Source of the DNA: Georgenia faecalis
Lineage (GTDB): Bacteria > Actinomycetota > Actinomycetes > Actinomycetales > Actinomycetaceae
Reading direction: 5' to 3'
Length of the DNA: 64,000 bases
NCBI RefSeq assembly: GCF_003710105.1
Contig: NZ_CP033325.1
Span: forward strand, 310,001 to 374,000
The notes under the pieces are model-generated. The model saw only the letters and a list, made by a program, of their open reading frames with translations, made no database searches and was not told the origin of the DNA. The translations under genes and the position numbers were made by a program. Below are positions 34,838-57,973 of this stretch, piece after piece. Positions within the stretch are counted from its first letter, which is position 1; each line of letters begins with the position of its first letter.

Positions 34838-35021
34838 CAGGTGTCGACGATCGTGACGCAAGGCACCGTCGTCGGCTCTGGTACTACCCGGGCACTCGCA
34901 GGCGAGTGTCCAGAACCCGTTCGGAGCGGACCGGTGTAGGCGAGGTGCTCGCCCCATCGTGGCCGATGGCGTCGTCGTGGAGGACGAGCGTCGGATCGCG
35001 CGAACATGTCAAGGAGGAATT

Positions 35022-38000
35022 GTGGTCAGACGTTCAGGGGTCGGCCGATGGTCGACCCGGGGTGCGGCGGCAGTGCTGTCTGCCGCGCTGGTGCTGCCGA
35101 TGACGATGAGTGGGGCGTATGCACACCCCGGTCACGCCGCGGAACCCGCCCAGGCGGCGCCGCAGGCTGATGTGTCGGCTGCCGAGGCGGCAACCGACTG
35201 GAACAACTACGAGAAGATCCTGCTCACCAAGAACACCGGTGAGCCGATCGACCTCGCGGTCATGCCGGACTCCACCGTCCTGCACACCGCGCGCAACGGC
35301 ATCGTCCGGCTGACGGACCCGACCACCGGCCAGACGAGCCAGGTGGCACAGCTCGACGTCTACGCCAACTCCGAGGACGGGCTCCAGGGCGTCGCGCTCG
35401 ACCCGGACTTCGAGGAGAATGGCTGGGTCTACCTGGTCTACGCCCCCCGCGTCATGTCCGGAACCTCGCCCACCGGCGTGGCCTACCCCGAGACGACGCC
35501 GGCAGGCGCTGCCCCGGAGCGGCTCCCCGAGGGTGCCGACCCCGCGACCTACTGGAACCAGTGGCTGGGGTACAACGTCCTCTCCCGTTTCCAGTGGGAC
35601 GACGAGACGAGCACCCTCGACCTGGCGTCCGAGCAGCAGATCATCAAGGTCGACGCCCAGCGCGGCCAGTGCTGCCACGTCGGTGCCGACATGGCCTTCG
35701 ACGGCGACGGCAACCTCTACCTCTCCTCCGGTGACAACACCCCGGCGGGAACCCCCGGTGCCAACGGCTACGCGCCGAACAACAACGCGCCCGGGATGAA
35801 CCCCGGCCTCGACTCGCGTCGTGGCGCCGGTAACACCAACGACCTGCGCGGAAAGATCCTCCGGATCAACGTCCTCGACGAGATCGCGCCCGACGCCGAG
35901 CCCGGCCCCGGGAGCACGTACACGATCCCCGCCGGCAACCTCTTCGACTCCGACGAGTACGACCCCGAGCTCGTCCGCGAAGAGGTCTACGCCATGGGCC
36001 TGCGCAACCCGTTCCGCATCGACTATGACGTCGAGAGCGGCGCGCTGGTGTGGGGCGACTACGGCCCCGACGCCGGTGCGGCTGACCCCCAGCGCGGCCC
36101 CATGGGCTACGTCGAGTGGCAGCTGACCACCGAGCCGATGAACGGCGGGTGGCCGTTCTGCCACGGGCCGAACGACGGTGGCGCCTACAACGAGTGGGAC
36201 TTCGCCAACGGCACCGCCGGCGAGTTCTTCGACTGCGCCGCCGGCCCGGTCAACAACTCCACGTGGAACACCGGCCTCGACCAGCTCCCGCCGGTCACCG
36301 AGCCGCAGGTCTACTACGGCGACGCGGTCGGCGAGCAGCCGCACGACGAGTTCATCGAGTTCAGCACCTCCCGCGGCCAGGCGCCGATGGGTGGCCCGAT
36401 CTTCCGTTACGACGCCGAGAACGACTCCGAGGCGCAGTTCCCCGAGCACTGGGACGGCAAGGCGTTCTTCGCCGAGTTCTCCATGGACTACGTCGCCGCG
36501 ATCTCGCTCGACGAGCTGAGCTCGGACGGCGTCGTCACCGAGGTCGAGAACTTCCTGCCGAACGAGCACCTCGAGACGGTCTCCCAGCCCATCTGGGACA
36601 ACGTCATGGACATGGAGTTCGGGCCGGACGGCTCGCTCTACGTCCTCGAGTACGGCGACGGCTTCTTCCGGCAGAACCCGGACGCCGGGCTCTACCGCGT
36701 GGACTACGCCGAGGGGAACAAGACCCCGCAGGGGTACGTCACCGCGAACCCCATCTCGAGCAGCGACGCGCCGCTCGAGGTCGAGTTCGACGCCTCCGCC
36801 TCCCGCGACCCGGAGGGCGAGGCCCTCACCTACGAGTGGGACTTCGAGGGCACCGGTGAGTTCGTCGCGGGTGGGGCCACCGCGTCCTACACCTACGACG
36901 CGCTCGGCCAGTACAACGTCACCCTCCGGGTGACCGACGCTGCCGGGAAGTTCGGCCTCGCCACCGTCCGGGTCACGGTCGGCAACACCGCCCCCGAGAT
37001 CAGCGTGGACGTGCCGAACGGCGCCTTCTTCAGCTGGGGCGACGCCATCCCCGTCACCGTCTCGGTGGCCGACGCGGAGGACGGCAACGAGCCGGTCTGC
37101 AACCGCATCAACTGGACCTTCGGCCTGGGCCACAACGAGCACGCGCACCCGGAGGTCTCCGGGCGTGGCTGCGAGTTCACCATCCAGACCAACGAGAGCG
37201 CCCAGGAGCACGGCGAGGGCGAGAAGCTCTACGGCACGCTCGTGGTGACCTACGCCGACGAGCCGCAGGGCGACGTCCCCGCCACGACCGGCGAGGCCAC
37301 GCTCATCCTCAAGCCCGCCGAGCAGCAGGCGGAGTGGTTCGACAGCGCCGAGGGCATCGAGGTCGTGGCCGACGAGTCGGCCCAGGCTCAGGGCAAGGTG
37401 GCCTCGTTCGACGCCGGCGACTGGTTCGCCTTCACGCCGATGAGCTTCCACGACGCTGCCACGGACGAGGCGGTCAACACCGTCACGGCTCGCGCCAGCG
37501 GCGAGGGAACCCTCTCGCTCCGCTGGGACGACCCCGCGGCCGAGCCTTTCGCCGAGGCTGTCTTCGGTGCGGGTGACGGCTGGCAGGACGTCGAGGCTGC
37601 GTTCAGCTCCGTCCCAGAGGGCTCCGGGACGGTCTACGTGACCTCGACCGGAGGCCTTGAGGTCGACGCCCTCACGTTCAGCGCCACCGACGTCACCGTG
37701 CCCAGCGAGCCGATCCACGTCCCGGTGGAGCAGGTCTCCATCGGGATGTTCTCCCTCATCAACTGGGTGGGGGAGGCCGGCCTGCCGGATGTGTTCGCAC
37801 GCCTGGCGGAGATCGGGTTCGAGAACGTCGAGCCCTTCGGCAGCAACTTCACGGGTTACACCGCGGAGGAGTTCCGGGCGATGACCGACGATCTGGGCCT
37901 GCGCGTCCCGTCGTCGCACTACAACACCGACGAGGCGACCTTCGACGAGACGCTCGCGTTCGTGGAGACCCTCGGCCAGGAGTACGTCGGTTCGGGTGGG

Positions 38001-38936
38001 TTCGCCTCCCCGGGCATCGGCTCCTACGAGGACACCCTCGCGACCGCGGCGGCGATGAACCGCCTCGGTCAGGCTTCGGTGGAGGCCGGGTTCGAGAAGT
38101 TCTTCGGCCACAACCACGCCGTCGAGTTCACCACCATGTACGACCACATGGGTGAGCACGGCAGTGAGCGGCTGTCGGCGTGGGAGATCCTCGTCGAGGA
38201 GACCGACCCGGAGTTCGTGACCTTCCAGCTGGACGTGGCCTGGGCCGCGGACGCCGGTGTCGACGTGCCCGCTCTGATCGAGGAGTACGGGGACCGGATC
38301 GAGCTGCTCCACGTCAAGGACGCCACGAACCTCGGTGGTGAGGGCAACCCCGTCTTCACCAACCTCGGTGAGGGTGATGTCGACCTGCAGGGCATCCTGG
38401 CCGCGGCGCAGGAGCACGCCGAGATCGCGTACTACGTCCTCGAGCTCGACCGCGCCGCCAACGGCGAGGAGTTCGTGACGACCGGCTTCGAGTACCTCAC
38501 CGGCCTGGAGGCCGGCGAGCCCGGTACGCCTGGTGAGCCCGGCGAGCCTGGTACGCCTGGCGAGCCCGGTACGCCTGGCGAGCCCGGCCAGCCCGGTACG
38601 CCTGGTGAGCCCGGCGAGCCTAGTACGCCTGGCGAGCCCGGTACGCCTGGCGAGCCCGGCCAGCCCGGTACGCCTGGCGAGCCCGGTCAGCCGGGTGCGC
38701 CTGGTGAGCCCGGCGAGCCTGGTACGCCTGGTGAGCCCGGTGCGCCTGGTGGCCCGGACGACGGCCGCGGTGACGTGGACGAGCGTGACGACACCCCGCC
38801 TGCGGGTGGGTCCGGTCGCCCCGGCGGCACGCTGCCCGACACCGGTGTGGAGCTCGGTCTCCTCGCCGGGGCCCTGCTCCTGGCGGTGGCCGGCGGCCTC
38901 ACGCTGCGGATGCGTCGGGTGACGCTCGGTAGCTGA
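35022..38936 (+). CDS. Surface-anchored sugar dehydrogenase-PKD-isomerase fusion
   Basis: A 1304-residue exported protein. Order: signal peptide (1-34), glucose/sorbosone-dehydrogenase-like propeller (about 60-563; [11 protein letters not shown] and [23 protein letters not shown]), PKD (568-656), an unassigned beta domain (657-768), CBM6-like domain (769-887), sugar isomerase/epimerase TIM barrel (901-1164), collagen-like G-x-x repeats (1167-1247), LPDTG (1271-1275), membrane helix and basic tail. The barrel keeps likely metal ligands: Glu in GHNHAVEF, Asp in QLDVAW, His in LLHVKD, Glu in YVLELD. GTG 35022 is used because AAGGAGG precedes it and the signal peptide starts there. Unlike its two paralogues it lacks ThuA. 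It likely oxidises and rearranges sugars on the cell surface (inference). Confidence 0.85.
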
Positions 38937-39233: not shown

Positions 39234-40433
39234 TCAGGCGAGCATGGCCTCGACGGCGTCCGGGGACAGGACGTGCTCGATGGCCATGGTGCTCGCACCC
39301 AGCACGGCGGCGCGGCCGGCGGTGCGGGAGTCGACGATCTTGAGGTGCTGCGTCGCCAGGGGCAGGGAGTCCTGGTAGACGACCTCACGGATGCCGGCGA
39401 TGAGCTGCTCGCCGGCGTCGGCGAGCATGCCGCCGACGACGATGATCGAGGGGTTGAGGAGGTTGACGCACCCCGCGAGCACGCCACCGATGTCGCGGCC
39501 GGCCTGGCGCACCGCCCGAGTGGCCTGGAGGTCGCCGGTGCGCACGAGGTCGACGACGTCGCGCGTCGAGTGGGCCTCGACGCCGTGCACCTGAAGGGCC
39601 GCCGCAACGGCGCTGCCGCTGGCGACCGCCTCGAGGCAGCCGATGTTGCCGCACCGGCAGGGCAGGCGGGGGCCTTCGCGCACGGCGATGTGACCGAGGT
39701 CGCCGGCGGCGCCGCGGGACCCGCGGCGCAGGGCGCCGTCGCTGATGATCCCGGACCCGATCCCCGTGGCGACCTTGACGAAGAGGAGGTCCATCTCCTC
39801 CGGCCAGACCGCGGCGCGTTCGCCGAGTGCCATGAGGTTGACGTCGTTGTCGACGAGGACGGGGGCGTCGAGGGCACACCCTAGGTGGCCGGGGACGTCG
39901 TAGCCGTCCCACCCCGGCATGATCGGCGGGTTCACGGGCCGCCCGGTCCGGTGCTCGACCGGGCCGGGCACGCCGACGCCGACGCCCGCGAGGTCCTCGA
40001 TCTGGCGGCCCGTCTCGGCGAGCAGGGCGCGGCCCCACGCCACGACGGCGGGGAGGACGACGTCGGGGCCGTCGGCGATGACGAGGGGCTCATCGCTCTC
40101 CGCGAGCACCGTCCCGGAGAGATCGGTGACCGCCATGCGCGCGTGGACGGCGCCGAGGTCGACGGCGAGCACCACCTTGGCGGAGGGGTTGAACACGAAG
40201 GTCGCCGGGGGGCGCCCGCCCGTGGACAGCGCGGAGCCGCCGGGGGAGACGAGGTCCGTGGCGAGCAGCTGCTCCAGCCGAACGGTGATGGTGGAGCGGG
40301 CCTGGCCGGTGTGTGCGGCGATGTCGGACTTGGTGCGCGGCAGGCCGTCCCGCAGCAGCTGCAGCACCTCGCCTGCCCCGGCACGCTCTCGCAGAGACGT
40401 TGTCACTCCCACGGGGCACATTAAACGCCTCAT
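39234..40433 (-). CDS. ROK-family transcriptional repressor
   Basis: A 399-residue regulator with an N-terminal winged helix (about 20-75; TKSDIAAHTGQARSTITVRLEQL) and a ROK domain. The zinc motif is CRCGNIGCLEAVASG, after DLGHIAVREG; AVDLGAVHARMAV is the ATP-site-like strand. It is divergent from the ABC importer operon across a roughly 100-bp gap and very likely controls it and perhaps the nearby surface-protein genes. The start at 40433 has a poor ribosome binding site; ATG 40421 is an alternative. The effector is unknown but is presumably a sugar or sugar acid handled by this locus. Confidence 0.88.
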   Translation of the reverse strand: MRRLMCPVGVTTSLRERAGAGEVLQLLRDGLPRTKSDIAAHTGQARSTITVRLEQLLATDLVSPGGSALSTGGRPPATFVFNPSAKVVLAVDLGAVHARMAVTDLSGTVLAESDEPLVIADGPDVVLPAVVAWGRALLAETGRQIEDLAGVGVGVPGPVEHRTGRPVNPPIMPGWDGYDVPGHLGCALDAPVLVDNDVNLMALGERAAVWPEEMDLLFVKVATGIGSGIISDGALRRGSRGAAGDLGHIAVREGPRLPCRCGNIGCLEAVASGSAVAAALQVHGVEAHSTRDVVDLVRTGDLQATRAVRQAGRDIGGVLAGCVNLLNPSIIVVGGMLADAGEQLIAGIREVVYQDSLPLATQHLKIVDSRTAGRAAVLGASTMAIEHVLSPDAVEAMLA

Positions 40434-40532
40434 TCCAGGTCTCTCTGCGCCGGTTGAGGCCGATCAGGACCATCGTATCGATCTTCGACATACTTCTTGC
40501 CGAAAGTCGACAAAAGGTGGTTTGATGGCGTC
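40434..40532. promoter_or_regulatory. Divergent control region, ROK repressor and ABC importer
   Basis: It contains two direct copies of TCGACA (40485-40490 and 40507-40512), with TACTTCTTGCCGAAAGT between them. The 8-mer TACTTCTT is also found at 34778-34785, upstream of the gene at 35022. The ROK operator is probably here, but no clean inverted repeat was identified. Confidence 0.4.
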
Positions 40533-42053
40533 ATGGTTGATGGAGACCCTGGAGCGGTGCTGCTCCAGATGAAACAGATCGTCAAGGTGTTCCCCGGAGC
40601 GCGGGCGCTCGACGGCGTGGACCTCGATGTGCGCGCCGGAGAGGTGCACTGCCTCCTCGGGCAGAACGGCGCGGGCAAGTCCACCCTGATCAAGGTTCTC
40701 GCCGGTGCCCACCAGCCCGACGAGGGCGAGATCCTGTGGGACGGCACCGCCGTGACGATCGCGAACCCGGTCGCCGCGCTCAAGATCGGCGTCGCGACGA
40801 TGTACCAGGAGCTCGACGTCGTCGACGGGCTCAGCGTCGCGGAGAACGTCTACCTGGGCCACGAGCTCGCCACCGGCGGGCTGCTCCAGCGCCGCGAGGC
40901 GCACCGCCGGACGCGGGAGATCCTCGGCCGGCTCGGTCACCCCGAGATCTCGCCCAGCCGCGAGGTGGGCCGGCTCTCCGCCGCCGGCAAGCAGGTGGTG
41001 AGCATGGCGCGCGCGCTGTCCCACGACGCCAAGGTCATCGTCATGGACGAGCCCTCCGCCGTCCTCGACTCCGAGGAGGTCGCCAACCTCTTCCGGGTGG
41101 TCCGCGCGCTCACCGCCGAGGGCGTGGCCATCGTCTACATCTCCCACCGCCTCGAGGAGATCCGCGAGATCGGCGACCGGATCACCGTCCTCAAGGACGG
41201 GCGCACCGTCGCCTCGGGGCTGCCGGTGGCCGACACCCCCACCAGCGAGCTCATCCGCCTCATGACCGGCCGTGCGGTGGACACCGGCCTCGGGGGCGAG
41301 CGCGCGCCCATCCAGGACGCCGAGCCGGTGCTCGAGGTCGAGAACCTCTCCCTCGCCGGTGTCTTCTCCGACGTCTCCTTCGTCGTGCGTCCGGGCGAGG
41401 TGGTCGGCCTCGCCGGCCTCGTCGGCGCCGGGCGCTCGGAGATCCTCGAGACCGTCTACGGCGCCCGCAAGGCGAGCGCCGGCACGGTCCGGGTCCAGGG
41501 CAAGCACCTGCGCCCCGGCTCGGTCCCTGCGGCCGTCGGCGCCGGTATCGGGCTCGCCCCCGAGGAGCGCAAGAGCCAGGGACTGCTCCTGGAGGAGCCC
41601 GTCTACCGCAACATCACGCTGTCGACCTTCGCGCGGTTCGCGCGGTCCGGCTTCCTCCAGGAGCGCGCGGAGCGGCAGGCCGCCGACGAGCAGATCGCCG
41701 CCCTGCACCTCGTCCCCGCCAACAGCGAGCGCCAGGTGCGCACGCTGTCCGGCGGCAACCAGCAGAAGGCGATGCTCGCCCGCTGGCTCGTCCATGGCTG
41801 CTCGGTCCTCCTCCTCGACGAGCCCACCCGCGGTGTGGACGTCGGGGCCCGGGCCGAGATCTACGCCCTCATCCGGCAGCTCGCCGCCCAGGGGGCGGCC
41901 ATCGTCGTCGTGTCCAGCGAGATCGAGGAGGTCCTCGGGCTGTCCGACGAGGTCCTCGTCATCGCCGAAGGACGCGTGGTCCACCGCGGACCCGCCCAGC
42001 AGATCGACGAGCACGGCGTGCTCGACCTCGTCATGGAAGGAACCCTCGCATGA
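40533..42053 (+). CDS. Ribose-type sugar ABC importer, ATPase (system 1)
   Basis: A 506-residue double-ATPase of the RbsA/XylG/MglA class. The first domain has Walker A GQNGAGKST, a weakened signature (LSAAGKQ) and VIVMDEPSAVLD. The second has a degenerate Walker A (GLVGAGRSE), signature LSGGNQQK and LLLDEPTRGVD, the normal asymmetry of this class. It drives import of a sugar through the next gene's permease. ATG 40533 is chosen; the AAAAGGTGG ribosome site is 12 nt upstream, a little far. The stop overlaps the permease start (ATGA). Start of the operon 40533-46535. Confidence 0.93.
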   Translation: MVDGDPGAVLLQMKQIVKVFPGARALDGVDLDVRAGEVHCLLGQNGAGKSTLIKVLAGAHQPDEGEILWDGTAVTIANPVAALKIGVATMYQELDVVDGLSVAENVYLGHELATGGLLQRREAHRRTREILGRLGHPEISPSREVGRLSAAGKQVVSMARALSHDAKVIVMDEPSAVLDSEEVANLFRVVRALTAEGVAIVYISHRLEEIREIGDRITVLKDGRTVASGLPVADTPTSELIRLMTGRAVDTGLGGERAPIQDAEPVLEVENLSLAGVFSDVSFVVRPGEVVGLAGLVGAGRSEILETVYGARKASAGTVRVQGKHLRPGSVPAAVGAGIGLAPEERKSQGLLLEEPVYRNITLSTFARFARSGFLQERAERQAADEQIAALHLVPANSERQVRTLSGGNQQKAMLARWLVHGCSVLLLDEPTRGVDVGARAEIYALIRQLAAQGAAIVVVSSEIEEVLGLSDEVLVIAEGRVVHRGPAQQIDEHGVLDLVMEGTLA

Positions 42054-43168
42054 GTGAGAACACCGTGGGCGGCACCGCTGCCGCGGGGCCGGCCGACCCC
42101 GCGCTGCCGCCCACCAACCGGGACGTCATGCCCGGTTCGCACACCCGTGGACCCGACAACGAGGGGTCGGGGAAGAAGAGCGCGTCCGCGCCGTCCGCCC
42201 TCCGGCGGCTCGGCGGCGGCACGGGAGTGGCGCGCAACGCCGGGCTCGTCATCGCGCTCGTGCTCCTGTGCATCGTCGGCTTCGTCACGGCGGGGGACCG
42301 GTTCCTCAGCACGGACAACATCACGACGATCCTCGCCTCTGCCGCGACGCTGGGCATCATCAGCATCGGGATGACCTTCGTCATCACCGGCGGTGGGATC
42401 GACCTCTCGGTCGGCTCCGTCCTCGGCCTGGCAACGGTGTGGGCGACCACCTTGGCCACCCAGACCATGGCCGCGGACACGCACTGGATCATCATGGTCT
42501 TCACCGCGATGGCGGTCGGCGCCGTCGCCGGCCTCATCAACGGCGCGATCGTCGCCTACGGCCGCGTGGTCTCCTTCATCGCGACCCTCGCCATGCTCAT
42601 CGGCGCGCGCGGCCTCGCGGAGATCATCTCGAACCGGCAGACCCAGCTCGTCACCGTCCAGCCGTTCCTCGACACGTTCCGCGCCGACATCCTCGGCCTG
42701 CCCGTCACCGTCTGGATGTTCATCATCGTGGCCATCGCCGGCTGGGTGCTGCTCAACCGGACGACGTTCGGCCGCCGCACCATCGCCGTCGGCGGCAACC
42801 CCGAGGCCGCCCGCCTGGCCGGCATCAAGGTCAAGCGCCACATGATGTACCTCTTCACGCTCGCCGGCCTCACGGTCGGCATCGCGGCCGTGACGATGAT
42901 GGCCCGCACGCGTTCCGGATCCTCGACCAACGGCACGCTCTACGAGCTCGACGCGATCGCGGCGGTCGTCGTGGGCGGGACGCTCCTCATCGGCGGCCGG
43001 GGCACCATCCTCGGCACCGTCTTCGGTGTTCTCATCTTTCAGACGCTCACCAACATCTTCGTCCTCAACAACCTCTCCACCTCGGCGCAGGCGATCACCA
43101 AGGGCGTCATCCTCGTGGCCGCGGTGCTCCTGCAGCAGCGCTTCGCCTCGCGCGCCCGAAGCAGTTAG
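42050..43168 (+). CDS. Ribose-type sugar ABC importer, permease (system 1)
   Basis: A 372-residue membrane protein of the RbsC family (BPD_transp_2). An extended hydrophilic N-terminus of about 60 residues precedes roughly nine membrane helices. The family signature GGGIDLSVGSVLGLATV is present, as are GGNPEAARLAGIKV and VVGGTLLIGGRGTILGTVFG. Only one permease gene exists in this operon, so it presumably works as a homodimer, in contrast to the second importer with two. The start overlaps the ATPase stop. It is followed by a hairpin at 43174 and then the binding protein. Confidence 0.92.
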   Translation: MSENTVGGTAAAGPADPALPPTNRDVMPGSHTRGPDNEGSGKKSASAPSALRRLGGGTGVARNAGLVIALVLLCIVGFVTAGDRFLSTDNITTILASAATLGIISIGMTFVITGGGIDLSVGSVLGLATVWATTLATQTMAADTHWIIMVFTAMAVGAVAGLINGAIVAYGRVVSFIATLAMLIGARGLAEIISNRQTQLVTVQPFLDTFRADILGLPVTVWMFIIVAIAGWVLLNRTTFGRRTIAVGGNPEAARLAGIKVKRHMMYLFTLAGLTVGIAAVTMMARTRSGSSTNGTLYELDAIAAVVVGGTLLIGGRGTILGTVFGVLIFQTLTNIFVLNNLSTSAQAITKGVILVAAVLLQQRFASRARSS

Positions 43169-43279: not shown

Positions 43280-44335
43280 ATGACCGCGAGCACCATGCGT
43301 CGCCGGTTCACCGTCGCCGCCGGCATCAGCGTCGCCGCCCTCACCCTGGCCGCCTGCACCGGCAACACCCCGGAGGAGGTGGCGACGGACAGCGACATGC
43401 AGAGCGCCGCCCCCGCCGCGGGCGGGAACGACGAGGAGGGGGAGACCGTCACCATCGGGTTCTCCGCCCCCGCCGCCGACCACGGCTGGATGGGCGCGAT
43501 GACCACGCAGGCGGTGGACGAGGCCGCCGAGTACGGCGACGTCGAGCTCCTCGTCGCCGAGGGCACCAACGACGTCAACCTCCAGATCAGCCAGATGGAG
43601 ACGTTCATCAACGACGGCGTCGACGCCATCGTCGTCGTTCCCTTCGACGGCGCGGCGCTCACCGGCGTGGCCCTCGAGGCCATGGAGGCGGGGATACCCG
43701 TCATCAACGTCGACCGCGAGTTCTCCGACCCCAACGCCGCCCGCGTCACCATCCTCGGTGACAACTACGGCATGGGCGTCAGCGCCGGCGAGTTCATCTG
43801 CGAGCAGCTCGGCGACCAGCCCGACGCCGTCGTCGCCGAGATCGCCGGCATCGACAACCTGCCCCTCACGCAGGACCGCAGCCAGGGCTTCGCGGACGCG
43901 CTGTCCGAGTGCGGCCTCGACGTCGACAACCGCGTCGCCGCCGACTTCACCGTCCAGGGCGGGGAGTCGGCCACGGCCAACCTCCTCCAGGCCGCGCCCG
44001 AGATCCATGCCATCTGGAACCACGACGACGACCAGGGCGTCGGCGTCCTGTCGGCCATCGACAACGCCGGCCGCGACGAGTTCATCCTCGTCGGCGGCGC
44101 CGGCTCGGCGAACATGATGCGCGAGATCGAGTCCGGCGAGTCCGTCGTCCAGGCGACGGTCGTCTACCCGGCCACCCAGGCGGCCGACGGTATCCGCATC
44201 GCCCGCCTGCTCGCCCAGGGCAACGCGATGAGCGACCTCGTCGAGGTCGAGGTGCCCCGCACCATCCAGCTGTTCGCCCCCGTGGTCACCGCCGACAACG
44301 TCGAGCAGTACCTCCCGCACGCCTTCGAGTCCTGA
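43280..44335 (+). CDS. Sugar-binding lipoprotein (system 1)
   Basis: A 351-residue periplasmic-type binding protein. The lipobox is LAAC (Cys at about residue 26), after a short signal sequence; a Gly/Glu-rich linker follows. The type I sugar-binding fold is recognised from VTIGFSAPAADHGWMGAM, ISQMETFINDGVDAIVVVPFDG and GIPVINVDREFSD. It captures a sugar outside the cell and delivers it to the permease. AAGGAGG precedes the ATG. The ligand is unknown; the context suggests an oxidised or rare sugar rather than ribose itself. Confidence 0.92.
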   Translation: MTASTMRRRFTVAAGISVAALTLAACTGNTPEEVATDSDMQSAAPAAGGNDEEGETVTIGFSAPAADHGWMGAMTTQAVDEAAEYGDVELLVAEGTNDVNLQISQMETFINDGVDAIVVVPFDGAALTGVALEAMEAGIPVINVDREFSDPNAARVTILGDNYGMGVSAGEFICEQLGDQPDAVVAEIAGIDNLPLTQDRSQGFADALSECGLDVDNRVAADFTVQGGESATANLLQAAPEIHAIWNHDDDQGVGVLSAIDNAGRDEFILVGGAGSANMMREIESGESVVQATVVYPATQAADGIRIARLLAQGNAMSDLVEVEVPRTIQLFAPVVTADNVEQYLPHAFES

Positions 44336-44348
44336 GCCGGGGAGCACG

Positions 44349-45527
44349 ATGACTGGCACGAACGCGCCGCTGCGCGTGGCGATGATCGGGTACGCCTTCA
44401 TGGGGCGGGCCCACTCCCAGGCGTGGCACACCGCGCCGCGCTTCTTCGACCTGGCACGCCGGCCTGAGACGGCCGTGCTCGTCGGGCGGAGCAGCGCGAG
44501 CGTCACCGAGGCGGCCCACCGACTGGGGTGGGCCGAGGCCGCGACCGACTGGCGGGAGGTGGTCGCCCGGGACGACATCGACCTCGTCGACATCTGCACG
44601 CCGGGGGACACCCACGCGGAGATCGCCATCGCAGCGCTGGCGGCCGGTAAGCACGTCCTCGTCGAGAAGCCGATGGCCAACACGTTGGCCGAGGCCGAGT
44701 CGATGGCCGCGGCGGCCCGGGCCGCCGCGGCCGCCCGCGTGCGCGCGATGGTCGGCTTCACCTACCGTCGGGTCCCCGCCGTCCGGCTCGCCCGCGAGCT
44801 CGTGGCGGAGGGCCGGATCGGGGAGGTCCGGCAGGTGCGCGCCCAGTACCTGCAGGACTGGCTGGCCGACGCCGAGGCCCCGCTGTCCTGGCGGCTCGAC
44901 AAGGAGAAGGCGGGGTCGGGGGCGCTCGGCGACATCGGCGCCCACATCGTCGACCTCACCCACTTCATCACCGGCGAGACGGTCACCGGGGTCAGCGGGA
45001 CGCTCGACACGTTCGTCAACGAGCGCCCGGTCGCGGAGAGCTTCTCCGGCCTGCACGGCAGCGGGGGCACCGAGCGTGGCCCCGTGACTGTCGACGACGC
45101 CGCGGTGTTCTTCGGCCGCCTCACCGGCGGCGCCCCGGCCGTCTTCGAGGCCTCCCGCGTGGCGTGGGGCCGCAAGAACGCCATGCGGATCGAGATCTCC
45201 GGTTCGCTCGGGTCGCTGGCCTTCGACTTCGAGGAGATGAACGTCCTCCACCTCTTCGACGCGACGGAGGAGTCCCGCACCGCCGGGTTCCGGCGGATCC
45301 TCGTCACGGAGCCGGACCACCCGTACATCGAGCACTGGTGGCCCGCCGGTCACGGGCTGGGCTACGAGCACGGGTTCACCCACCAGGTCGTCGACCTCGT
45401 CACGGCGATCGCCGACGGCACCCAGCCCGAGCCCTCGTTCGACGACGGCCTGGCCGTCCAGCGCGTCCTCGACGCCGTCGAGCGTTCGGCGGCCAACCAC
45501 AGCACGTACACCCCGTTGGGAGACTGA
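44349..45527 (+). CDS. Gfo/Idh/MocA-family oxidoreductase
   Basis: A 392-residue NAD(P)-dependent sugar dehydrogenase. The Rossmann N-terminus is VAMIGYAFMGRAHSQAW, the family Lys lies in HVLVEKPMANTLAEA, and the C-terminal alpha/beta domain holds GALGDIGAHIVDLTHFITGE. Members oxidise or reduce carbon 3 or other positions of sugars, including steps in 3-keto-sugar pathways. It lies 13 bp after the binding-protein gene and 3 bp before the isomerase gene, clearly in one operon. Cytosolic. The direction of reaction and substrate are not known; context favours handling an imported keto-sugar. Confidence 0.93.
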   Translation: MTGTNAPLRVAMIGYAFMGRAHSQAWHTAPRFFDLARRPETAVLVGRSSASVTEAAHRLGWAEAATDWREVVARDDIDLVDICTPGDTHAEIAIAALAAGKHVLVEKPMANTLAEAESMAAAARAAAAARVRAMVGFTYRRVPAVRLARELVAEGRIGEVRQVRAQYLQDWLADAEAPLSWRLDKEKAGSGALGDIGAHIVDLTHFITGETVTGVSGTLDTFVNERPVAESFSGLHGSGGTERGPVTVDDAAVFFGRLTGGAPAVFEASRVAWGRKNAMRIEISGSLGSLAFDFEEMNVLHLFDATEESRTAGFRRILVTEPDHPYIEHWWPAGHGLGYEHGFTHQVVDLVTAIADGTQPEPSFDDGLAVQRVLDAVERSAANHSTYTPLGD

Positions 45528-45530
45528 CAG

Positions 45531-46535
45531 ATGGCACGACCCGTCACCCTGTTCACCGGCCAGTGGGCCGACCTGCCGCTCGAGGAGGTGGCCCGCCTCG
45601 CCTCCGGGTGGGGCTACGACGGCCTGGAGATCGCCTGCTGGGGCGACCACCTCGACCCCTGGCGGGGCGCCGAGGACGACGCCTACATCCAGGGCAAGCT
45701 CGACCTGCTCGAGCGGTACGGGCTCCAGGTCCACGCCATCTCCAACCACCTCAAGGGGCAGGCGGTCTGCGACGACCCGATCGACGAGCGGCATCACGCG
45801 ATGCTCTCCGACCGGGTGTGGGGCGATGGCGACGCCGAGGGCGTGCGCCAGCGCGCGGCCGAGGAGATGAAGCTGACGGCCCGCACGGCCGCGCGGCTCG
45901 GGGTGAAGACCGTCGTCGGTTTCACCGGGTCGGCCATCTGGAAGTACGTCGCGATGTTCCCGCCGGTCTCGGAGGAGCTCGTCGAGGCCGGGTACCGGGA
46001 CTTCGCCGACCGGTGGAACCCCATCCTCGACGTCTTCGACGAGGTGGGCGTGCGGTTCGCCCACGAGGTGCACCCCAGCGAGATCGCCTACGACTACTGG
46101 ACCACCGTGCGCACCCTCGAGGCGATCGGGCACCGGGAGGCCTTCGGCCTCAACTGGGACCCGTCGCACTTCGTGTGGCAGGACCTCGACCCCGTGGGGT
46201 TCATGTGGGACTTCAAGGACCGGATCTACCACGTGGACTGCAAGGACGCGAAGCGCCGGGTGGGCAACGGCCGCAACGGCCGGATGGGCTCGCACCTGCC
46301 GTGGGCCGACCCCCGCCGCGGCTGGGACTTCGTCTCCACCGGGCACGGCGACGTCCCGTGGGAGGACTCCTTCCGGATGCTCAACACCATCGGCTACGAG
46401 GGCCCCATCTCCATCGAGTGGGAGGACGCCGGCATGGACCGCCTCGTCGGGGCGCCCCAGGCCCTGGAGTTCGTGCGCTCGCTGGCGTTCGACCCGCCGT
46501 CGGCGGCCTTCGACGCCGCGTTCGCCAGCCGGTGA
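45531..46535 (+). CDS. Sugar phosphate isomerase/epimerase family protein
   Basis: A 334-residue TIM-barrel protein of the AP-endonuclease-2/xylose-isomerase-like superfamily, without signal peptide. Predicted metal ligands are Glu in [12 protein letters not shown], Asp/His in [10 protein letters not shown], His in [10 protein letters not shown] and Glu in SIEWEDAG. Related proteins act with Gfo/Idh/MocA partners in breaking down inositols, keto-sugars or C-glycosides. It starts 3 bp after the oxidoreductase stop. It is the last gene of the operon; a terminator follows. Confidence 0.88.
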
Positions 46536-46720: not shown

Positions 46721-52402
<5,682 letters not shown>

Positions 52403-52597: not shown

Positions 52598-52815
52598 TCG
52601 TCACATACATCATCACCGGCCTGGGGCAGCGCTGCGCCAGGTGGCGGAAGCCACTGTCCTGCCGGGATCGCGACTGCTCGCCAGCCCTCATCACGGGCGC
52701 CCGGGCGGTCGAGGTGCCCTTCCCACCTCGCTGGGCGCCGCGGCTTCGTAGAACCAGCAGAGACGGTGAACCGCAGGTCCACCGGCCCGCGTCACGTTGT
52801 CGAAGGAGATGTCTC

Positions 52816-52920
52816 GTGGCACGTCAACCAGGACCGGCCCTCGGGCGGCGAGCGTGCGGAGCGGCCGGCGCCGTGACGGTGCGGCCGTCGGCCGCCACCG
52901 GGGCCGGAGGCCCGCGGTGA
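52816..52920 (+). CDS. Possible 34-residue leader peptide
   Basis: A GTG at 52816 follows the good ribosome site GAAGGAG. The frame encodes 34 residues, VARQPGPALGRR then Ala/Gly-rich, and ends TGA, overlapping the next gene's GTG (GTGA at 52917-52920). The start resembles that of the protein at 46721 (VARRPAP). It could be a translational coupler, or a remnant of an N-terminus. Coding is not proven. Confidence 0.35.
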   Translation: MARQPGPALGRRACGAAGAVTVRPSAATGAGGPR

Positions 52921-54419
52921 CCACGCCGCCCCCGCTGCTGCGGATGCGGGGGATCACCAAGTCGTTCTTCGGGGTGCAGGTCCTCAACGGGATCGACATG
53001 GAGGTGCGCGCCGGGGAGGTGCACGCCGTCGTCGGAGAGAACGGGGCGGGCAAGTCGACGCTCATGAAGATCCTCGCCGGGGTGCACCCCGCCGACGGGG
53101 GCTCCATCGAGCTCGACGGCCGGGCCGTGAGCTTCACCCACCCCCTCGAGGCGCAGGCCGCCGGGGTGACCACGGTGTTCCAGGAGTTCAACCTCCTGCC
53201 CGAGCGGACGGTCGCCGAGAACGTCTACCTCGGCCGCGAGCCGCGCAGGTTCGCCCTGGTCGACGGCGCACGCATGGTGCGCGACACCGCCGCTCTCCTC
53301 GACGACCTCGGCATCGAGACCATCGCTCCGGACGTCAAGGTGCGGGCCCTCTCGGTCGCCGAGCAGCAGGTCGTCGAGATCGTCAAGGCGATGTCATTCG
53401 ACGCCCGGATCATCTCGATGGACGAGCCCACCGCGGCGCTCGCCGACCACGAGGTCGAGCTGCTCTACCGCCTTGTGCGCCGTCTCCAGGAACGCGGCGT
53501 CGCCGTGCTGTACGTCTCGCACCGGCTCAAGGAGATCTTCCACCTGTGCGACCGCATCACCATCCTCAAGGACGGCAGCCTCGTCGACACGGTCGACGCC
53601 GCGAGCATCACCTCCGACGAGCTCGTGCGGAAGATGGTCGGCCGGTCGATCAGCGCCCTGTTCCCTCAGCCCCGGGAGGGCACCCGCACCGGTGACGTCC
53701 GGCTCTCCGTCCGGGGGGCCGGCAACCTCATGGTCCGCGACATCAGCTTCGACGTCCGGGCGGGGGAGATCGTCGCGCTCGCCGGGCTCCAGGGCAGCGG
53801 GCGGTCCGAGATCGCGCACGCGCTCTTCGGCGTCGAGCGGTTCCGCACCGGCGAGATCCACCTCGACGGCACGCGCATCGACCCGCGCTCACCGCGGCAG
53901 GCGGTGCGCTGCGGCCTCGCGCTCGTCACCGAGGACCGCAAGGCCGAGGGGCTCGCCCTCAACCAGTCGGTCATGGCGAACGCCCGCCTCGTCCTCGACG
54001 CCGTCGTGCCTCGACGCGCGAACCAGGCGGCGCGGCGCATCCCGGAGATCCTCTCCTCGCTCGAGCTCGCCGCGCGCAGCGGCAGCCACGAGGTGCGCTT
54101 CCTCTCCGGCGGCAACCAGCAGAAGGTCGTCCTGGCGAAGTGGCTCGTCACCGACCCGGCCGTCATCGTCATGGACGAGCCCACCCGCGGCATCGACGTC
54201 GGCGCGAAGCGCGCGGTCTACGAGCTCATGCGGGACCTCGCGGCCCAGGGCGTCGCCATCGTCCTCATCTCCTCCGAGCTGCCGGAGGTCATCGGGATGG
54301 CTGACCGGATCATCGTCCTGCACGACGGCGAGATCAGCGGCGAGCTGCCCGGAGGCTGCGACGAGGAGGCCGTCATGGCGTTGGCCACCCGGCACGAGTC
54401 GGTGGAGGAGATCGCATGA
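52917..54419 (+). CDS. Ribose-type sugar ABC importer, ATPase (system 2)
   Basis: A 500-residue double ATPase of the RbsA/XylG class. Domain 1: GENGAGKST, LSVAEQQ, IISMDEPTAALAD. Domain 2: degenerate Walker A (GLQGSGRSE), LSGGNQQK and VIVMDEPTRGID. GTG 52917 is preferred: GGAGG lies 6 nt upstream and the conserved LLRMRGITKSFFGV begins soon after. A longer frame from 52797 adds a basic, non-conserved stretch and is rejected. First gene of an operon of two permeases, binding protein, isomerase and probably the third surface protein. Confidence 0.93.
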   Translation: MTTPPPLLRMRGITKSFFGVQVLNGIDMEVRAGEVHAVVGENGAGKSTLMKILAGVHPADGGSIELDGRAVSFTHPLEAQAAGVTTVFQEFNLLPERTVAENVYLGREPRRFALVDGARMVRDTAALLDDLGIETIAPDVKVRALSVAEQQVVEIVKAMSFDARIISMDEPTAALADHEVELLYRLVRRLQERGVAVLYVSHRLKEIFHLCDRITILKDGSLVDTVDAASITSDELVRKMVGRSISALFPQPREGTRTGDVRLSVRGAGNLMVRDISFDVRAGEIVALAGLQGSGRSEIAHALFGVERFRTGEIHLDGTRIDPRSPRQAVRCGLALVTEDRKAEGLALNQSVMANARLVLDAVVPRRANQAARRIPEILSSLELAARSGSHEVRFLSGGNQQKVVLAKWLVTDPAVIVMDEPTRGIDVGAKRAVYELMRDLAAQGVAIVLISSELPEVIGMADRIIVLHDGEISGELPGGCDEEAVMALATRHESVEEIA

Positions 54420-55504
54420 GCACGACGTCGACGGTGGCCCCGGCGTCCGCCGGGCGCGCGACCCCGCGCGCGCCCCGCCGGAACCCGCTGCGGTCGGTCC
54501 CGCTCATCTCCGTGGCGCTGCTCGTGCTGCTCGTCGTCGCCGGCATCCTGCTGGCCTCCCGGGGCGAGAACCTCCTCAGCGCCGGCTCGATCGTCGACAT
54601 CCTCACGCGTTCCAGCCTCCTCGGCTTCATCGCGATCGGGCAGACGCTCGTGATCCTGTGCCGGTCCCTCGACCTCTCGGTCGGTTACGTGGCGGCCCTG
54701 AGCAGCCTGGTCGCCGCCGTCGTCATGGACGGGGAGCCGTCGCGCATCCTCCTCGGCGTCGCCGCGGCGCTCGGGATCGCGGCCGCCGTCGGGCTGTTCA
54801 ACGGGATCGTCACGACCAAGCTCGGCGTCCACGCCTTCATCACCACGCTCGGGTCGGGCCTCATCATCAAGGGCTTCCTCGACACCCGGTACCCCGGCCC
54901 GTCCGGGTCGGTGCCCTCGGCGTTCCAGGGCTTCGGCTACACGCGCATCGGCGTGCTGCCGGTCTCCGCGATCATCATGCTCGTCATCGCCGCGGCCGGC
55001 GCCCTCATGCTCCACCGCACCCGGCTGGGGCACAGCATGTTCGCCGTCGGCGGCAACATCGACGTCGCGCGCCTGTCCGGCATCCGCACCGACCGCACGC
55101 TCATCCTCGCGCACGTCATGTGCTCGACGATGGCCGGCCTCGCCGGCCTGCTCCTCGCGGCCCGGTTCAGCACCGGCGTCGGGGCGCAGATCTACGGGGC
55201 GGGCTACGACCTCGACTCCATCGCCGCCGTCGTCCTCGGCGGGACGCTGCTCCTCGGCGGACGCGGCGGCATCGGCGGCACGATCGCCGCGGTCCTCATC
55301 CTCGGCGTCCTCGACAGCCTCTTCAACCAGCTGCAGATCAACCCGTTCTTCCGGGACGTCCTGCGGGGCGTCATCATCATCGCCGCCGTCGCCCTGTACG
55401 CCCGGCGGCAGATCGACCCGAAGAAGGCCCGGGTGCGGTTCCGGGACACGACCTCACCGAGCGCCGCGGAACCACCGCCCGCGACCGAGGGAGGCCGCTC
55501 ATGA
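54416..55504 (+). CDS. Ribose-type sugar ABC importer, permease A (system 2)
   Basis: A 362-residue RbsC-family membrane protein with about nine helices. Signature segments are LCRSLDLSVGYVAALSSLVA, GGNIDVARLSGIRTDRTL and VVLGGTLLLGGRGGIGGTIAAV. It starts in a 4-bp overlap with the ATPase stop (ATGA). Its partner permease follows with a similar overlap, so the system probably has a heterodimeric channel. A hydrophilic C-terminal extension of about 30 residues (KKARVRFRDTTSPSAAE) is unusual for the family. Confidence 0.92.
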   Translation: MSTTSTVAPASAGRATPRAPRRNPLRSVPLISVALLVLLVVAGILLASRGENLLSAGSIVDILTRSSLLGFIAIGQTLVILCRSLDLSVGYVAALSSLVAAVVMDGEPSRILLGVAAALGIAAAVGLFNGIVTTKLGVHAFITTLGSGLIIKGFLDTRYPGPSGSVPSAFQGFGYTRIGVLPVSAIIMLVIAAAGALMLHRTRLGHSMFAVGGNIDVARLSGIRTDRTLILAHVMCSTMAGLAGLLLAARFSTGVGAQIYGAGYDLDSIAAVVLGGTLLLGGRGGIGGTIAAVLILGVLDSLFNQLQINPFFRDVLRGVIIIAAVALYARRQIDPKKARVRFRDTTSPSAAEPPPATEGGRS

Positions 55505-56544
55505 GCACCCGCACCGGCGCGGCACCGGGCGGGCCGCCGTCCTTCCTCGCGCAGCTCAAGCAGAACGGCAGCGGGCCGGTGCTCGTCGTGCTGGCGGTGC
55601 TCGTCGCCGTCATGGCCGTGCTCAACCCCGGGTTCTACGAGCCGCCGTCCCTCATGGCGTTCCTGCGCAACGCCGCGCCGCTCGTCATCCTCGCGATCGG
55701 CCAGTACTTCGTCATCGTGGCGGGCGAGTTCGACCTCTCGGTCGGCAGTCTCGTCGGCGCGCAGGTGGTCATCGCGGCGCGGCTCATCAACGGCGAGGAG
55801 GACCGCACGTGGCCCGTCATCGCCCTCATGGTGGGCTTCGGGCTGCTCGTGGGGCTCGTCAACGGCCTCATCACCACCCTCCTGCGGGTGCCGTCGTTCA
55901 TCACCACGCTCGGCACGATGCTCGTGCTCTACGGCGCGATCCGGATGTGGACCGGGGGGTCGCCCACGGGCGCCCTCTCCGAGGGCTTCCGCCAGTGGGG
56001 GCGCCTGGGTATCGACATGCCCGTCCTGCGTCAGCTGCCCTACGCGCTGCTCATCATGATCGCCCTCGCCGTCGTCGGGATCCTCGTCATGCGCTCCTCC
56101 TACGGGCGGGTGCTCATGGCGACCGGTGACAACGACACCGCTGCCACCTTCGCCGGGGGCCGGGTCTGGCTCGTCCGGACCGGGGCGTTCGTGCTCTCCT
56201 CCCTCTTCGCCACCGTCGCCGGCATCCTCGTCGGCGGCTTCGCCGGGGTCACCGCCCAGGTCGGCCAGGGCATGGAGTTCACCGCCATCACCGCCGTCGT
56301 GCTCGGCGGGGTCCTCCTCGGCGGCGGGCGCGGGTGGGTCGTCGGGGCGATGGCGGGCGCGTTGACCTACCAGCTCCTCGAGCGCCTCCTCGTCCAGCTC
56401 GACATGCCCTCGACGCTCAACCCGACGATCCAGGGCGTCATCATCATCGCCGCCGTCGCCTTCGCGGCGGACCGGTGGCGCACCCGACGAGGGCGGACCG
56501 CCCCGCAGACGCCCGCCGAGCCCGAGCCCGTGGGAGTCGCATGA
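55501..56544 (+). CDS. Ribose-type sugar ABC importer, permease B (system 2)
   Basis: A 347-residue RbsC-family permease, paralogous to the preceding one but clearly diverged. Motifs: VAGEFDLSVGSLVGAQVV, TGDNDTAATFAGGRV and VVLGGVLLGGGRGWVVGAMAG. The conserved GGNPxAA loop of the family is changed to TGDNDTAA. It starts at 55501 within ATGA, overlapping the previous stop. It is likely the second half of the translocation pore. A larger open frame runs into it from the preceding genes, but only this ATG restores the family start. Confidence 0.92.
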   Translation: MSTRTGAAPGGPPSFLAQLKQNGSGPVLVVLAVLVAVMAVLNPGFYEPPSLMAFLRNAAPLVILAIGQYFVIVAGEFDLSVGSLVGAQVVIAARLINGEEDRTWPVIALMVGFGLLVGLVNGLITTLLRVPSFITTLGTMLVLYGAIRMWTGGSPTGALSEGFRQWGRLGIDMPVLRQLPYALLIMIALAVVGILVMRSSYGRVLMATGDNDTAATFAGGRVWLVRTGAFVLSSLFATVAGILVGGFAGVTAQVGQGMEFTAITAVVLGGVLLGGGRGWVVGAMAGALTYQLLERLLVQLDMPSTLNPTIQGVIIIAAVAFAADRWRTRRGRTAPQTPAEPEPVGVA

Positions 56545-56617
56545 GCTGACCCTCGAGCAACGCCCGTCCCGCACTCACGCACGTCCCGACTTCTCATCGC
56601 TACCAAGGAGGGTATTG

Positions 56618-57862
56618 ATGCAGCGAAAGCTCCGCGTGACCGCCGGCATCCTCGGTCTCGGGCTCGCCCTGACCGCCTGCACGACCGACGCACCGACGGA
56701 CACCGAGGACCCCACCACCACCGCCGCGCCCACCACGGAGAGCGGCACCGACGCCGCCACCGCCGCCGAGGGCGGCACCGAGGAAGGGGAGTTCTTCGTC
56801 CGCGCCGACTACGAGACCGAGCTCGCCCAGCGGGACATGACCCCGGAGGGGGACCCCGAGACGCCCTGGCTGCAGATGATCGAACCCATCGAGATGGCCG
56901 ACACCGCCGAGTTCGCCGCGGAGGGGCCGCAGACGCTGTGCTTCTCCAACGCCTCGATCTCCAACCCGTGGCGCGTCACGGGCTGGACCACCATGCAGCA
57001 GCAGGTGGAGGTCCTCCAGGCCGAGGGGGTCATCGGCGAGTTCCGCGTCGCGGACGCCGGCGACGACGACAACAAGCAGATCTCCGACATCGAGTCCTTC
57101 ATCTCCGACGGCGACTGCGGCGCCCTCATCATCTCGCCGTCGACGACGGCGACCCTCACGCCCGCCGTCGAGGCGGCCTGCGAGAGCGGCGTGCCGGTCA
57201 TCGTCTTCGACCGCGGGGTCAACACCGACTGCGCCGTCACCTTCATCCACCCCATCGGGGGGTACGCCTACGGCGCGAGCGGCGCGGAGTTCCTCGTGGA
57301 GAACCTCGAGCCGGGCTCGACGGTGCTGGCGCTGCGGATCCTGCCCGGCGTGGACGTCCTCGAGCACCGCTGGGGCGCCGCGAACGACATCTTCTCGCAG
57401 AGCGACCTCGAGGTCGTCGGCGTGGAGTTCACCGGTGGGGACGGCGCCCAGATCAAGGACATCGTCACCCAGTACCTGCAGCGCGGGGACGTCGATGGCA
57501 TCTGGATGGACGCCGGTGACGGCGCCGTCGCCGCCGTCGAGGCCTTCGAGGACGCGGGCGCGGACTACCCGGTCTTCGTCGGGGAGGACGAGCTGAGCTT
57601 CCTGCGCAAGTGGGAGGACACGGGCATGACGGCAATCGGCCTCAGCTACTCGAACTTCCAGTGGCGCACGCCCGTCCTGGCCGCCCAGATGATCTGGAAC
57701 GGCGAGGAGGTGCCCGCGGAGTGGGTCCTGCCCCAGGCGCCCATCACCGAGGACGACCTGGCCGACTACCTCGAGCGCAACGTCGACATGCCGTCGTTGC
57801 ACTACGCCAAGTTCGGCGGCGAGGACCTGCCCGGGTTCCCGGACGCCTGGCAGGGCCGCTAG
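56618..57862 (+). CDS. Sugar-binding lipoprotein (system 2)
   Basis: A 414-residue binding protein. Signal peptide and lipobox LTAC (Cys at about residue 21), then a Thr/Glu-rich linker and a long N-terminal extension (about residues 55-100) not usual in RbsB. The core has TLCFSNASISNPWRVTGWTTMQQQVEV and CGALIISPSTTATLTPAVEAAC, with GVPVIVFDRGVNTDC. AAGGAGGG lies 5 nt before the ATG at 56618; a TTG three bases earlier is rejected. The ligand is unknown. Several Cys residues in the core could form a disulfide outside the cell. Confidence 0.9.
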   Translation: MQRKLRVTAGILGLGLALTACTTDAPTDTEDPTTTAAPTTESGTDAATAAEGGTEEGEFFVRADYETELAQRDMTPEGDPETPWLQMIEPIEMADTAEFAAEGPQTLCFSNASISNPWRVTGWTTMQQQVEVLQAEGVIGEFRVADAGDDDNKQISDIESFISDGDCGALIISPSTTATLTPAVEAACESGVPVIVFDRGVNTDCAVTFIHPIGGYAYGASGAEFLVENLEPGSTVLALRILPGVDVLEHRWGAANDIFSQSDLEVVGVEFTGGDGAQIKDIVTQYLQRGDVDGIWMDAGDGAVAAVEAFEDAGADYPVFVGEDELSFLRKWEDTGMTAIGLSYSNFQWRTPVLAAQMIWNGEEVPAEWVLPQAPITEDDLADYLERNVDMPSLHYAKFGGEDLPGFPDAWQGR

Positions 57863-57885
57863 CGCCCGACGTCAGCACGCCGTGG

Positions 57886-57919
57886 GGGGCGCGTGCCGGC
57901 CGGTCCCGGCACGCGCCCC
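57886..57919 (+). terminator. Hairpin after binding protein 2
   Basis: GGGGCGCGTGCCGG pairs perfectly with CCGGCACGCGCCCC (14 bp). It may partly end the transporter message before the isomerase gene, or protect it from decay. No T-run. Confidence 0.6.
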
Positions 57920-57973
57920 GCACACCCCGCGCCGAGCCCCGACGCCCGGCACCGACGATGAAGTGGACGGACG

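Follow-up and report, generated by a model that had tools for sequence, protein, structure and literature searches.

Georgenia faecalis carries, within a 64,000-nucleotide stretch of its genome (the window; taken from a single contig of 3.43 Mb, bases 310001-374000, with a G+C content of 73%), the gene for a 1325-residue surface protein, here called P0001 (positions 34959-38936 of the window, plus strand), that contains an isomerase-like TIM barrel. With a probability of roughly 0.74, this barrel is an active Mn2+-dependent 3-keto-glycoside 1,2-lyase, or beta-eliminase, that works on the exterior of the cell wall and feeds an import-and-reduce pathway. Its substrate is likely a C3-oxidised glycoside. 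The assignment draws on the domain, its residues, the neighbouring genes, the export signal and the anchor as they appear in the sequence; the reactions, the compound acted on and the succession of pathway steps are inferred.

Redox-assisted cleavage of glycosides via 3-keto intermediates is a young field and a newly found alternative to ordinary glycan digestion. The kind of enzyme is known from work of 2020-2024; the architecture and the location are new. No report of a wall-anchored or GSDH-fused 3-keto-glycoside lyase was found in the literature, which is a weak negative, most subscription journals lying outside the coverage. Judging from this locus, certain actinobacteria may carry out the cleavage at their cell wall, using multiple copies of the enzyme joined to binding modules, with genes for hydration and reduction alongside.

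Domain architecture and anchoring of P0001

From its amino terminus onward, P0001 is composed of a signal-like stretch, a GSDH beta-propeller (PF07995; 35241-36077, with a modelled span of 35196-36722), a PKD domain (36744-36980), a CBM6-like domain (37326-37682; 44.2 bits), a PF01261 TIM barrel (37719-38507, residues 921-1183), collagen-like G-X-Y repeats (PF01391; 38511-38684), and an LPDTG sortase motif (38832-38846) followed by a hydrophobic stretch and a basic tail. All are on the plus strand; the domains come from a domain search, and the signal sequence and anchor were read by eye. The initial annotation had placed an isomerase-like barrel at 37722-38515, and its coordinates are correct to within a few bases: the domain is intact, scoring 44.4 bits against the PF01261 cut-off of 31.1.

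P0001 is one of four related surface proteins, the others being P0002 and P0003 in the window and P4 beyond it. An LPXTG-type motif, a hydrophobic stretch and a basic tail (motifs by eye), in a genome with four sortase genes, mark P0001, P0002 and P4 as sortase-anchored surface proteins, and P0003 does not share the full set. By its sequence, the P0001 barrel is the C-terminal catalytic domain of a predicted exported, sortase-anchored protein. The G-X-Y repeats (38511-38684 in P0001 and 52031-52204 in P0002) separate the last catalytic domain from the sortase motif, and are perhaps wall-spanning stalks.

The metal site and its conservation

In the enzyme AtOGE (PDB 8BVK), the metal is held by His132, Asp163 and His189, with Glu233 as a weak ligand, and His134 is catalytic; the H134A variant is inactive and H189A has less than 0.1% activity (available portion of PMC10628242). 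The alignment of AtOGE to the P0001 barrel spans barrel residues 28-261 (E 2.8e-10), and all five of these functional residues are conserved. His1051, on strand beta5, is the counterpart of the ligand His132 and His1053 that of the catalytic His134 (codons of His1051, Asn1052 and His1053 at 38109-38117); Asp1092 on beta6 corresponds to Asp163 (38232-38234), His1118 on beta7 to His189 (38310-38312), and Glu1162 on beta8 to the weak ligand Glu233 (38442-38444). The aligned site is a His-Asp-His-Glu ligand set with a catalytic-type His1053, and its beta5 position holds His, not Glu.

The four metal ligands had originally been given as Glu, Asp, His and Glu. The last three stand, as Asp1092, His1118 and Glu1162; the first is replaced by His1051 in the AtOGE alignment. 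The Glu originally noted, for which no residue number was given, was presumably Glu1056, a conserved residue three positions past His1053 that aligns with Glu137 of AtOGE, which is absent from the ligands stated in the available portion of PMC10628242. At the column where the surface barrels have His-Asn-His, the same alignment shows Glu-Pro-Leu in a cytosolic barrel encoded at 57974-58831. In ketose 3-epimerases (e.g., DTE, DPE and LRE), the beta5 Glu is both a metal ligand and the acid-base residue; the surface barrels have His there in 58 of 58 distinct homologues. They have instead the features of the lyase/O-glycoside eliminase subset of PF01261, namely a TIM barrel, AtOGE-type His/Asp/His/(Glu) ligands and an equivalent of His134 (His1053). 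A further position, barrel residue 170 (P0001 residue 1090), varies among the 60 barrels: 35 have Gln, which is typical of the surface group, and 25 have Glu; it corresponds to AtOGE Glu161, which binds metal in an unproductive second site (PMC10628242, available portion).

Conservation was assessed across 60 homologous barrels (58 distinct sequences) from the same genome, the family, the phylum and named genomes; the table omits the own-genome duplicates L010, L020, L028 and L034, the truncated L038 and L039, and matches without a locus. In barrel numbering, His131, His133, Asp172, Trp175, His198, Lys200 and Asp201 are invariant in all 58, and Glu242 is present in 57, the remaining row ending before it. 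A divergent alignment of 22 rows has 16 invariant positions out of 263, all five functional residues included (p about 4e-7 under random positions), and 25 distinct rows below 45% identity have 15 of 263, again with all five; because the rows were collected by similarity, these figures are somewhat inflated. The metal site is conserved, and the enzyme is therefore probably active. Together with the predicted export of the protein, this agrees with the initial proposal of an active enzyme outside the cell.

Sequence and fold comparison

A PDB sequence search with the P0001 barrel gave seven matches at E<=0.1, to 8TCD/8TCR (lyase AL1), 8TCS, 8TCT (lyase BT1), 8BVK (AtOGE), 3OBE, 3L23 and, at the margin, an endonuclease 4. 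The functions of AL1 and BT1 are those of the PDB titles; 8TCS has the same residues as 8TCD in the alignments, and 3OBE and 3L23 are structural-genomics proteins with no assigned function. Neither a ketose 3-epimerase nor the hydratase AtHYD (8RO4) was among the seven.

The AlphaFold2 model of the barrel, built from an alignment with 17 relatives, has a predicted local distance difference test score (pLDDT) of 94.5 and a predicted template modelling score of 0.90. On strands E128-131, E167-172, E194-199 and E238-241, in the second half of the barrel, the predicted ligands lie at or beside the C-terminal end. By strand position this is as expected for one site and fits a convergence of the residues, the check that had been proposed. 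In a Foldseek search the model matched 3OBE first (8.6e-18; function unassigned), then AL1 (3.4e-17), BT1 (8.6e-16) and AtOGE (1.2e-12); AtHYD, at rank 22 (E 7.6e-11), was below the lyases. VIA-align Z scores were 28.4 for AL1, 28.2 for 3OBE, 27.8 for BT1, 24.1 for Art22, 23.4 for AtOGE, 22.6-23.2 for IolE/IolI and about 20-21 for ketose 3-epimerases. Among structures whose function is named, 3-keto-beta-glucopyranoside-1,2-lyases score highest (Z 28.4-27.8).

The strongest NCBIfam match is IolE (TIGR04379), whose model gave 42.0 and 35.6 bits, under a cut-off of 290; weak matches include fructoselysine 3-epimerase for the P0002 barrel (E 0.023) and L-ribulose-5-phosphate 3-epimerase for the P0001 barrel (E 0.046). 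The psicose epimerase model NF051856 (cut-off 300) was not among the matches listed for either surface barrel, and the 57974-58831 barrel, used as a control, reached 127.6 bits, also under the cut-off. Function cannot be read from a common fold by itself; it is the concordance of residues, sequence and fold that supports the lyase assignment.

The GSDH propeller and the source of the 3-keto group

The GSDH domains of P0001, P0002 and P0003 score 88.7, 112.9 and 80.5 bits against PF07995 (cut-off 25), and 30.8, 34.8 and 38.3 bits against TIGR03606, below its cut-off of 434.55. A catalytic-type His and an RNP motif are found in 13 of 13 GSDH copies. We take the His, Arg-Asn and Arg-x-Arg positions to be those of a pyrroloquinoline quinone (PQQ) site, the His being catalytic. 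A Cys-Cys pair stands directly before the presumed catalytic His (CCHVGAD; the region of P0001 residues 232-262) in 12 of the 13 copies, P0003 having none; vicinal disulfides beside PQQ are known in other quinoproteins.

The propeller is not accepted as a proven oxidase, given a weak model (pLDDT 66.6) and a fold list that includes, besides PQQ dehydrogenases, human hedgehog-interacting protein, whose propeller is not an oxidase. The fused domain is a candidate maker of the extracellular 3-keto sugar, with PQQ-site motifs that are incomplete. If it is a PQQ enzyme, its cofactor may come from outside; PqqC had no match in the genome, a result of little weight, as no control genome was over the cut-off. 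Alternatively, the 3-keto-glycosides could be supplied by other organisms or made by a different enzyme.

Neighbouring genes

Between P0001 and P0002 lie a ROK-family regulator (39234-40433, minus strand; 173 bits) and, on the plus strand, an ATP-binding cassette (ABC) transporter ATPase with two ABC domains (40497-42053), its BPD_transp_2 permease (42050-43168, start approximate), a sugar-binding-type lipoprotein (Peripla_BP_4; 43280-44335), a Gfo/Idh/MocA oxidoreductase of the levoglucosan-dehydrogenase kind (44349-45527) and a cytosolic TIM barrel (45531-46535). In the PDB the oxidoreductase matches 4H3V at 8e-178, a protein to which no function is assigned, and 6A3F at 1e-82, which is titled putative dehydrogenase and is presumably levoglucosan dehydrogenase. 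The cytosolic barrel matches 2ZDS (1e-173; no assigned function) and, second, AtHYD (8RO4), a 2-hydroxy-3-keto-glucal hydratase, at 3.8e-37. This gene set is similar to the intracellular part of the route of oxidation, elimination, hydration and reduction that the available portions of the reports describe for levoglucosan (PMC7676230, PMC10066097) and for Agrobacterium glucosides (PMC10628242).

The surface-type barrel occurs in 10 of 151 genomes of a family draw (threshold 1e-10). An AtHYD-type gene is present in 9 of these 10 and in 18 of the 151 overall, with 1.2 expected (Fisher 5e-9, uncorrected for kinship); a distance of 0.4 kb separates the two genes in one genome of the draw (G125).

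A second ABC cluster (52797-58831), upstream of P0003, has two permeases and ends with the cytosolic barrel at 57974-58831 (plus strand). The latter is of the ketose-3-epimerase type, with Glu on beta5, and provides an internal contrast: it matches ketose 3-epimerases in the PDB, with E down to 2.9e-38, and also YcjR (6WN6), a 3-keto-D-glucoside 4-epimerase.

Proposed mechanism

In the proposed sequence of events, a glycan or glycoside already oxidised at C3 would bind the barrel metal, itself held by His1051, Asp1092, His1118 and, weakly, Glu1162. The CBM6 and PKD modules would bring the barrel to its substrate, and sortase would attach the protein. With His1053 as the catalytic residue assisting removal of the C2 hydrogen, the C1 substituent (the aglycone or remaining glycan) would depart, leaving 2-hydroxy-3-keto-glucal, or the equivalent from another sugar, outside the cell. 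In P0002 and P4 this product may be hydrated outside to the 3-keto-sugar by an attached PF06439 domain; otherwise it would be imported by the adjacent ABC transporter and hydrated by the AtHYD-type barrel (45531-46535). The 3-keto sugar would then be reduced inside by the Gfo/Idh/MocA enzyme (44349-45527).

A bolder and tentative version, which we hold to be doubtful, makes P0002-like proteins self-contained extracellular redox-glycosidases that would perform glycan binding, C3 oxidation by GSDH, beta-elimination by the barrel and hydration by PF06439, leaving import and reduction to the cell interior. If true, an oxidise-eliminate-hydrate route otherwise made up of separate enzymes would run on the actinobacterial cell surface in one polypeptide.

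Alternative functions of the barrel

In the foremost competing reading, itself rather improbable, the barrel would not be a plain lyase but would hydrate 2-hydroxy-3-keto-glucal, either as its sole reaction or as a bifunctional lyase/hydratase. Its precedent is LgdB2, suggested in the available portion of PMC7676230 to perform both reactions. One barrel might do both steps, because P0001 and P0003 have no PF06439 domain; some relatives have tandem barrels, both with the full residue set, and AtHYD is among the Foldseek matches. Yet the lyases rank above AtHYD in fold, and 8RO4, absent from the sequence matches of the P0001 barrel, is the second match of the 45531-46535 barrel. A ketose 3-epimerase acting on free sugars outside the cell, the function first suggested, has the same superfamily and fold (structural matches at Z of about 20-21), three of the four ligands and two very weak NCBIfam matches in its favour. 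The initial annotation had reasoned that sugar phosphates are not expected outside the cell, and such substrates are indeed rejected here as unlikely there; its choice of a free sugar is not supported, given a beta5 His of the lyase type and best matches of named function that are 3-keto-glycoside lyases. Nor is the ketose 3-epimerase template supported: such enzymes are missing from the seven PDB matches, no psicose epimerase model match is listed, and the control barrel at 57974-58831 matches both. The beta5 residue, the sequence matches and the structural ranking (about 20-21 against 28.4-27.8 for the lyases) all disfavour a free-ketose epimerase, which is unlikely.

Another dehydratase (IolE-like) or 3-keto-glycoside epimerase (YcjR-like), with a different outcome at a similar site, has slimmer prospects still. 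YcjR is reportedly an epimerase of 3-keto-glycosides, and IolE is both the strongest NCBIfam match and a structural match at Z 22.6-23.2; but 42 bits is far from the cut-off of 290, the lyases score higher, inositol catabolism is ill-suited to an extracellular location, and YcjR matches the cytosolic 57974-58831 barrel, not that of P0001. Least probable of all is a catalytically idle barrel serving as a binding or spacer module. Its low Pfam score and the binding modules around it would fit such a role, against which stands the strict retention of the five functional residues in the 25 distinct rows below 45% identity, where so few positions are invariant.

Several observations weigh against the lyase assignment and the pathway drawn around it. 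The P0001 barrel is about 24-30% identical to characterised lyases, similar sites occur in dehydratases, hydratases and epimerases of PF01261, and in VIA-align the isomerase Art22 is slightly above AtOGE, with IolE/IolI just below it. There is no clear extracellular C3 oxidase. A GMC oxidase (glucose-methanol-choline family; the GMC-type 3-dehydrogenase) was not found in the genome, and 5 of 14 control genomes were positive; PqqE gave only sub-cut-off matches, to which little weight attaches, since 0 of 14 control genomes were over the cut-off. The Arg-x-Arg before GPDG, present in 2ISM, is missing from 13 of 13 GSDH copies. The Gfo/Idh/MocA enzyme scores 370 bits against the levoglucosan dehydrogenase model NF052479, under its cut-off of 650. 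Finally, the co-occurrence of barrel and AtHYD-type gene, uncorrected for kinship, rests on two genera (8 of 9), and the AtHYD-type gene may serve another pathway, because nine genomes carry it without the barrel.

Other surface proteins, relatives and evolution

P0002 (46685-52402, plus strand; 1905 residues) comprises, in order, ThuA (46904-47539; 267 bits), GSDH, PKD, CBM6 and ConA-like domains, a second TIM barrel (50657-51433; PF01261, 54.7 bits) with the same residue set as that of P0001, a PF06439 3-keto-disaccharide hydrolase domain (51485-52021; 135.7 bits, cut-off 26.8), collagen repeats and an LPNTG sortase motif (52298-52312, by eye). This second barrel had been noted at 50656-51440; the domain is present, and that stretch is one base off frame. 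P0003 (58908-64000, plus strand; 2366 residues, extending past the end of the window) has ThuA, GSDH, PKD, CBM6 and ConA-like domains and a barrel (genome 374911-375687), without a sortase motif. Downstream of it, P4 (genome 376306-380967) has PA14, a long Pfam-free stretch, CBM35, PF06439, a lyase-type barrel, collagen repeats and LPDTG. PF06439 is fused to the lyase-type barrel in P0002, where it follows the barrel, and in P4, where it precedes it. The four surface barrels lie within 33 kb (contig 347719-380430), the other three being 80-82% identical to that of P0001. Two further PF01261 matches occur just past P4 (genome 382897-386011, minus strand), and an exported GSDH and PF06439 protein with no PF01261 match listed is encoded at genome 821209-825216, minus strand.

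Named relatives were gathered by short peptide patterns and amount to seven loci, not a census, in Georgenia, Oceanitalea, Cellulosimicrobium and Oerskovia. A domain scan covered six related proteins, each from a different one of these loci: GSDH, PKD and the barrel are present in every one, two barrels in two of them and ThuA in one. Single chains that bear two lyase-type barrels in tandem, both with a complete residue set, occur among loci L003-L007 (Georgenia, Oceanitalea and Cellulosimicrobium). At 1e-15, with no more than 6 candidates scored per genome, a barrel match is present in at least 24 of 396 phylum genomes. Two scans of viral contigs yielded no relatives, and phage or viral carriage is rejected.

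In a tree of 28 rows (midpoint-rooted, with partial reference rows and a long hydratase row), the fused surface barrels form one group (100/100) of eight rows: four from this genome, one from Georgenia, two from Cellulosimicrobium and one from another family genome. The group is nested (100/99) with the stand-alone barrels L017, L018, L040 and L042, each directly after a signal-like sequence (by eye). A 95/88 branch separates the surface and stand-alone barrels, together with three known-lyase rows, from the epimerase and hydratase types. The tree points to a single fusion of an exported stand-alone barrel with a GSDH-PKD-CBM protein.

Comparison with known systems

Among chains of named function, the best sequence matches of the P0001 barrel are AL1 from Alistipes (8TCD, 8TCR) and BT1 from Bacteroides thetaiotaomicron (8TCT). 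The likeness extends to the fold (Z about 28), the HNH and HxKD motifs and the beta6 Asp, at 24-26% identity in the structural alignment; the solved chains, however, are 270-290 residues long, whereas the P0001 barrel is one domain of a multi-domain wall-anchored protein. AtOGE shares all the ligands and the catalytic His, as well as the operon logic of oxidation, elimination, hydration and reduction. In contrast to its operon of separate enzymes, which includes a glycoside dehydrogenase (PMC10628242, available portion), the P0001 barrel is predicted to be exported and is fused to other domains, in a genome where no GMC oxidase was found.

The levoglucosan pathway (LgdA, LgdB1, LgdB2 and LgdC) likewise combines Gfo/Idh/MocA and PF01261 enzymes with an ABC importer; no extracellular enzyme is described in the available portions of PMC7676230 and PMC10066097, whereas the Georgenia barrel is predicted to be extracellular. 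The 3-keto-disaccharide hydrolase domain (DUF1080; PF06439) recurs in P0002 and P4, there fused to a lyase-type barrel on the cell surface.

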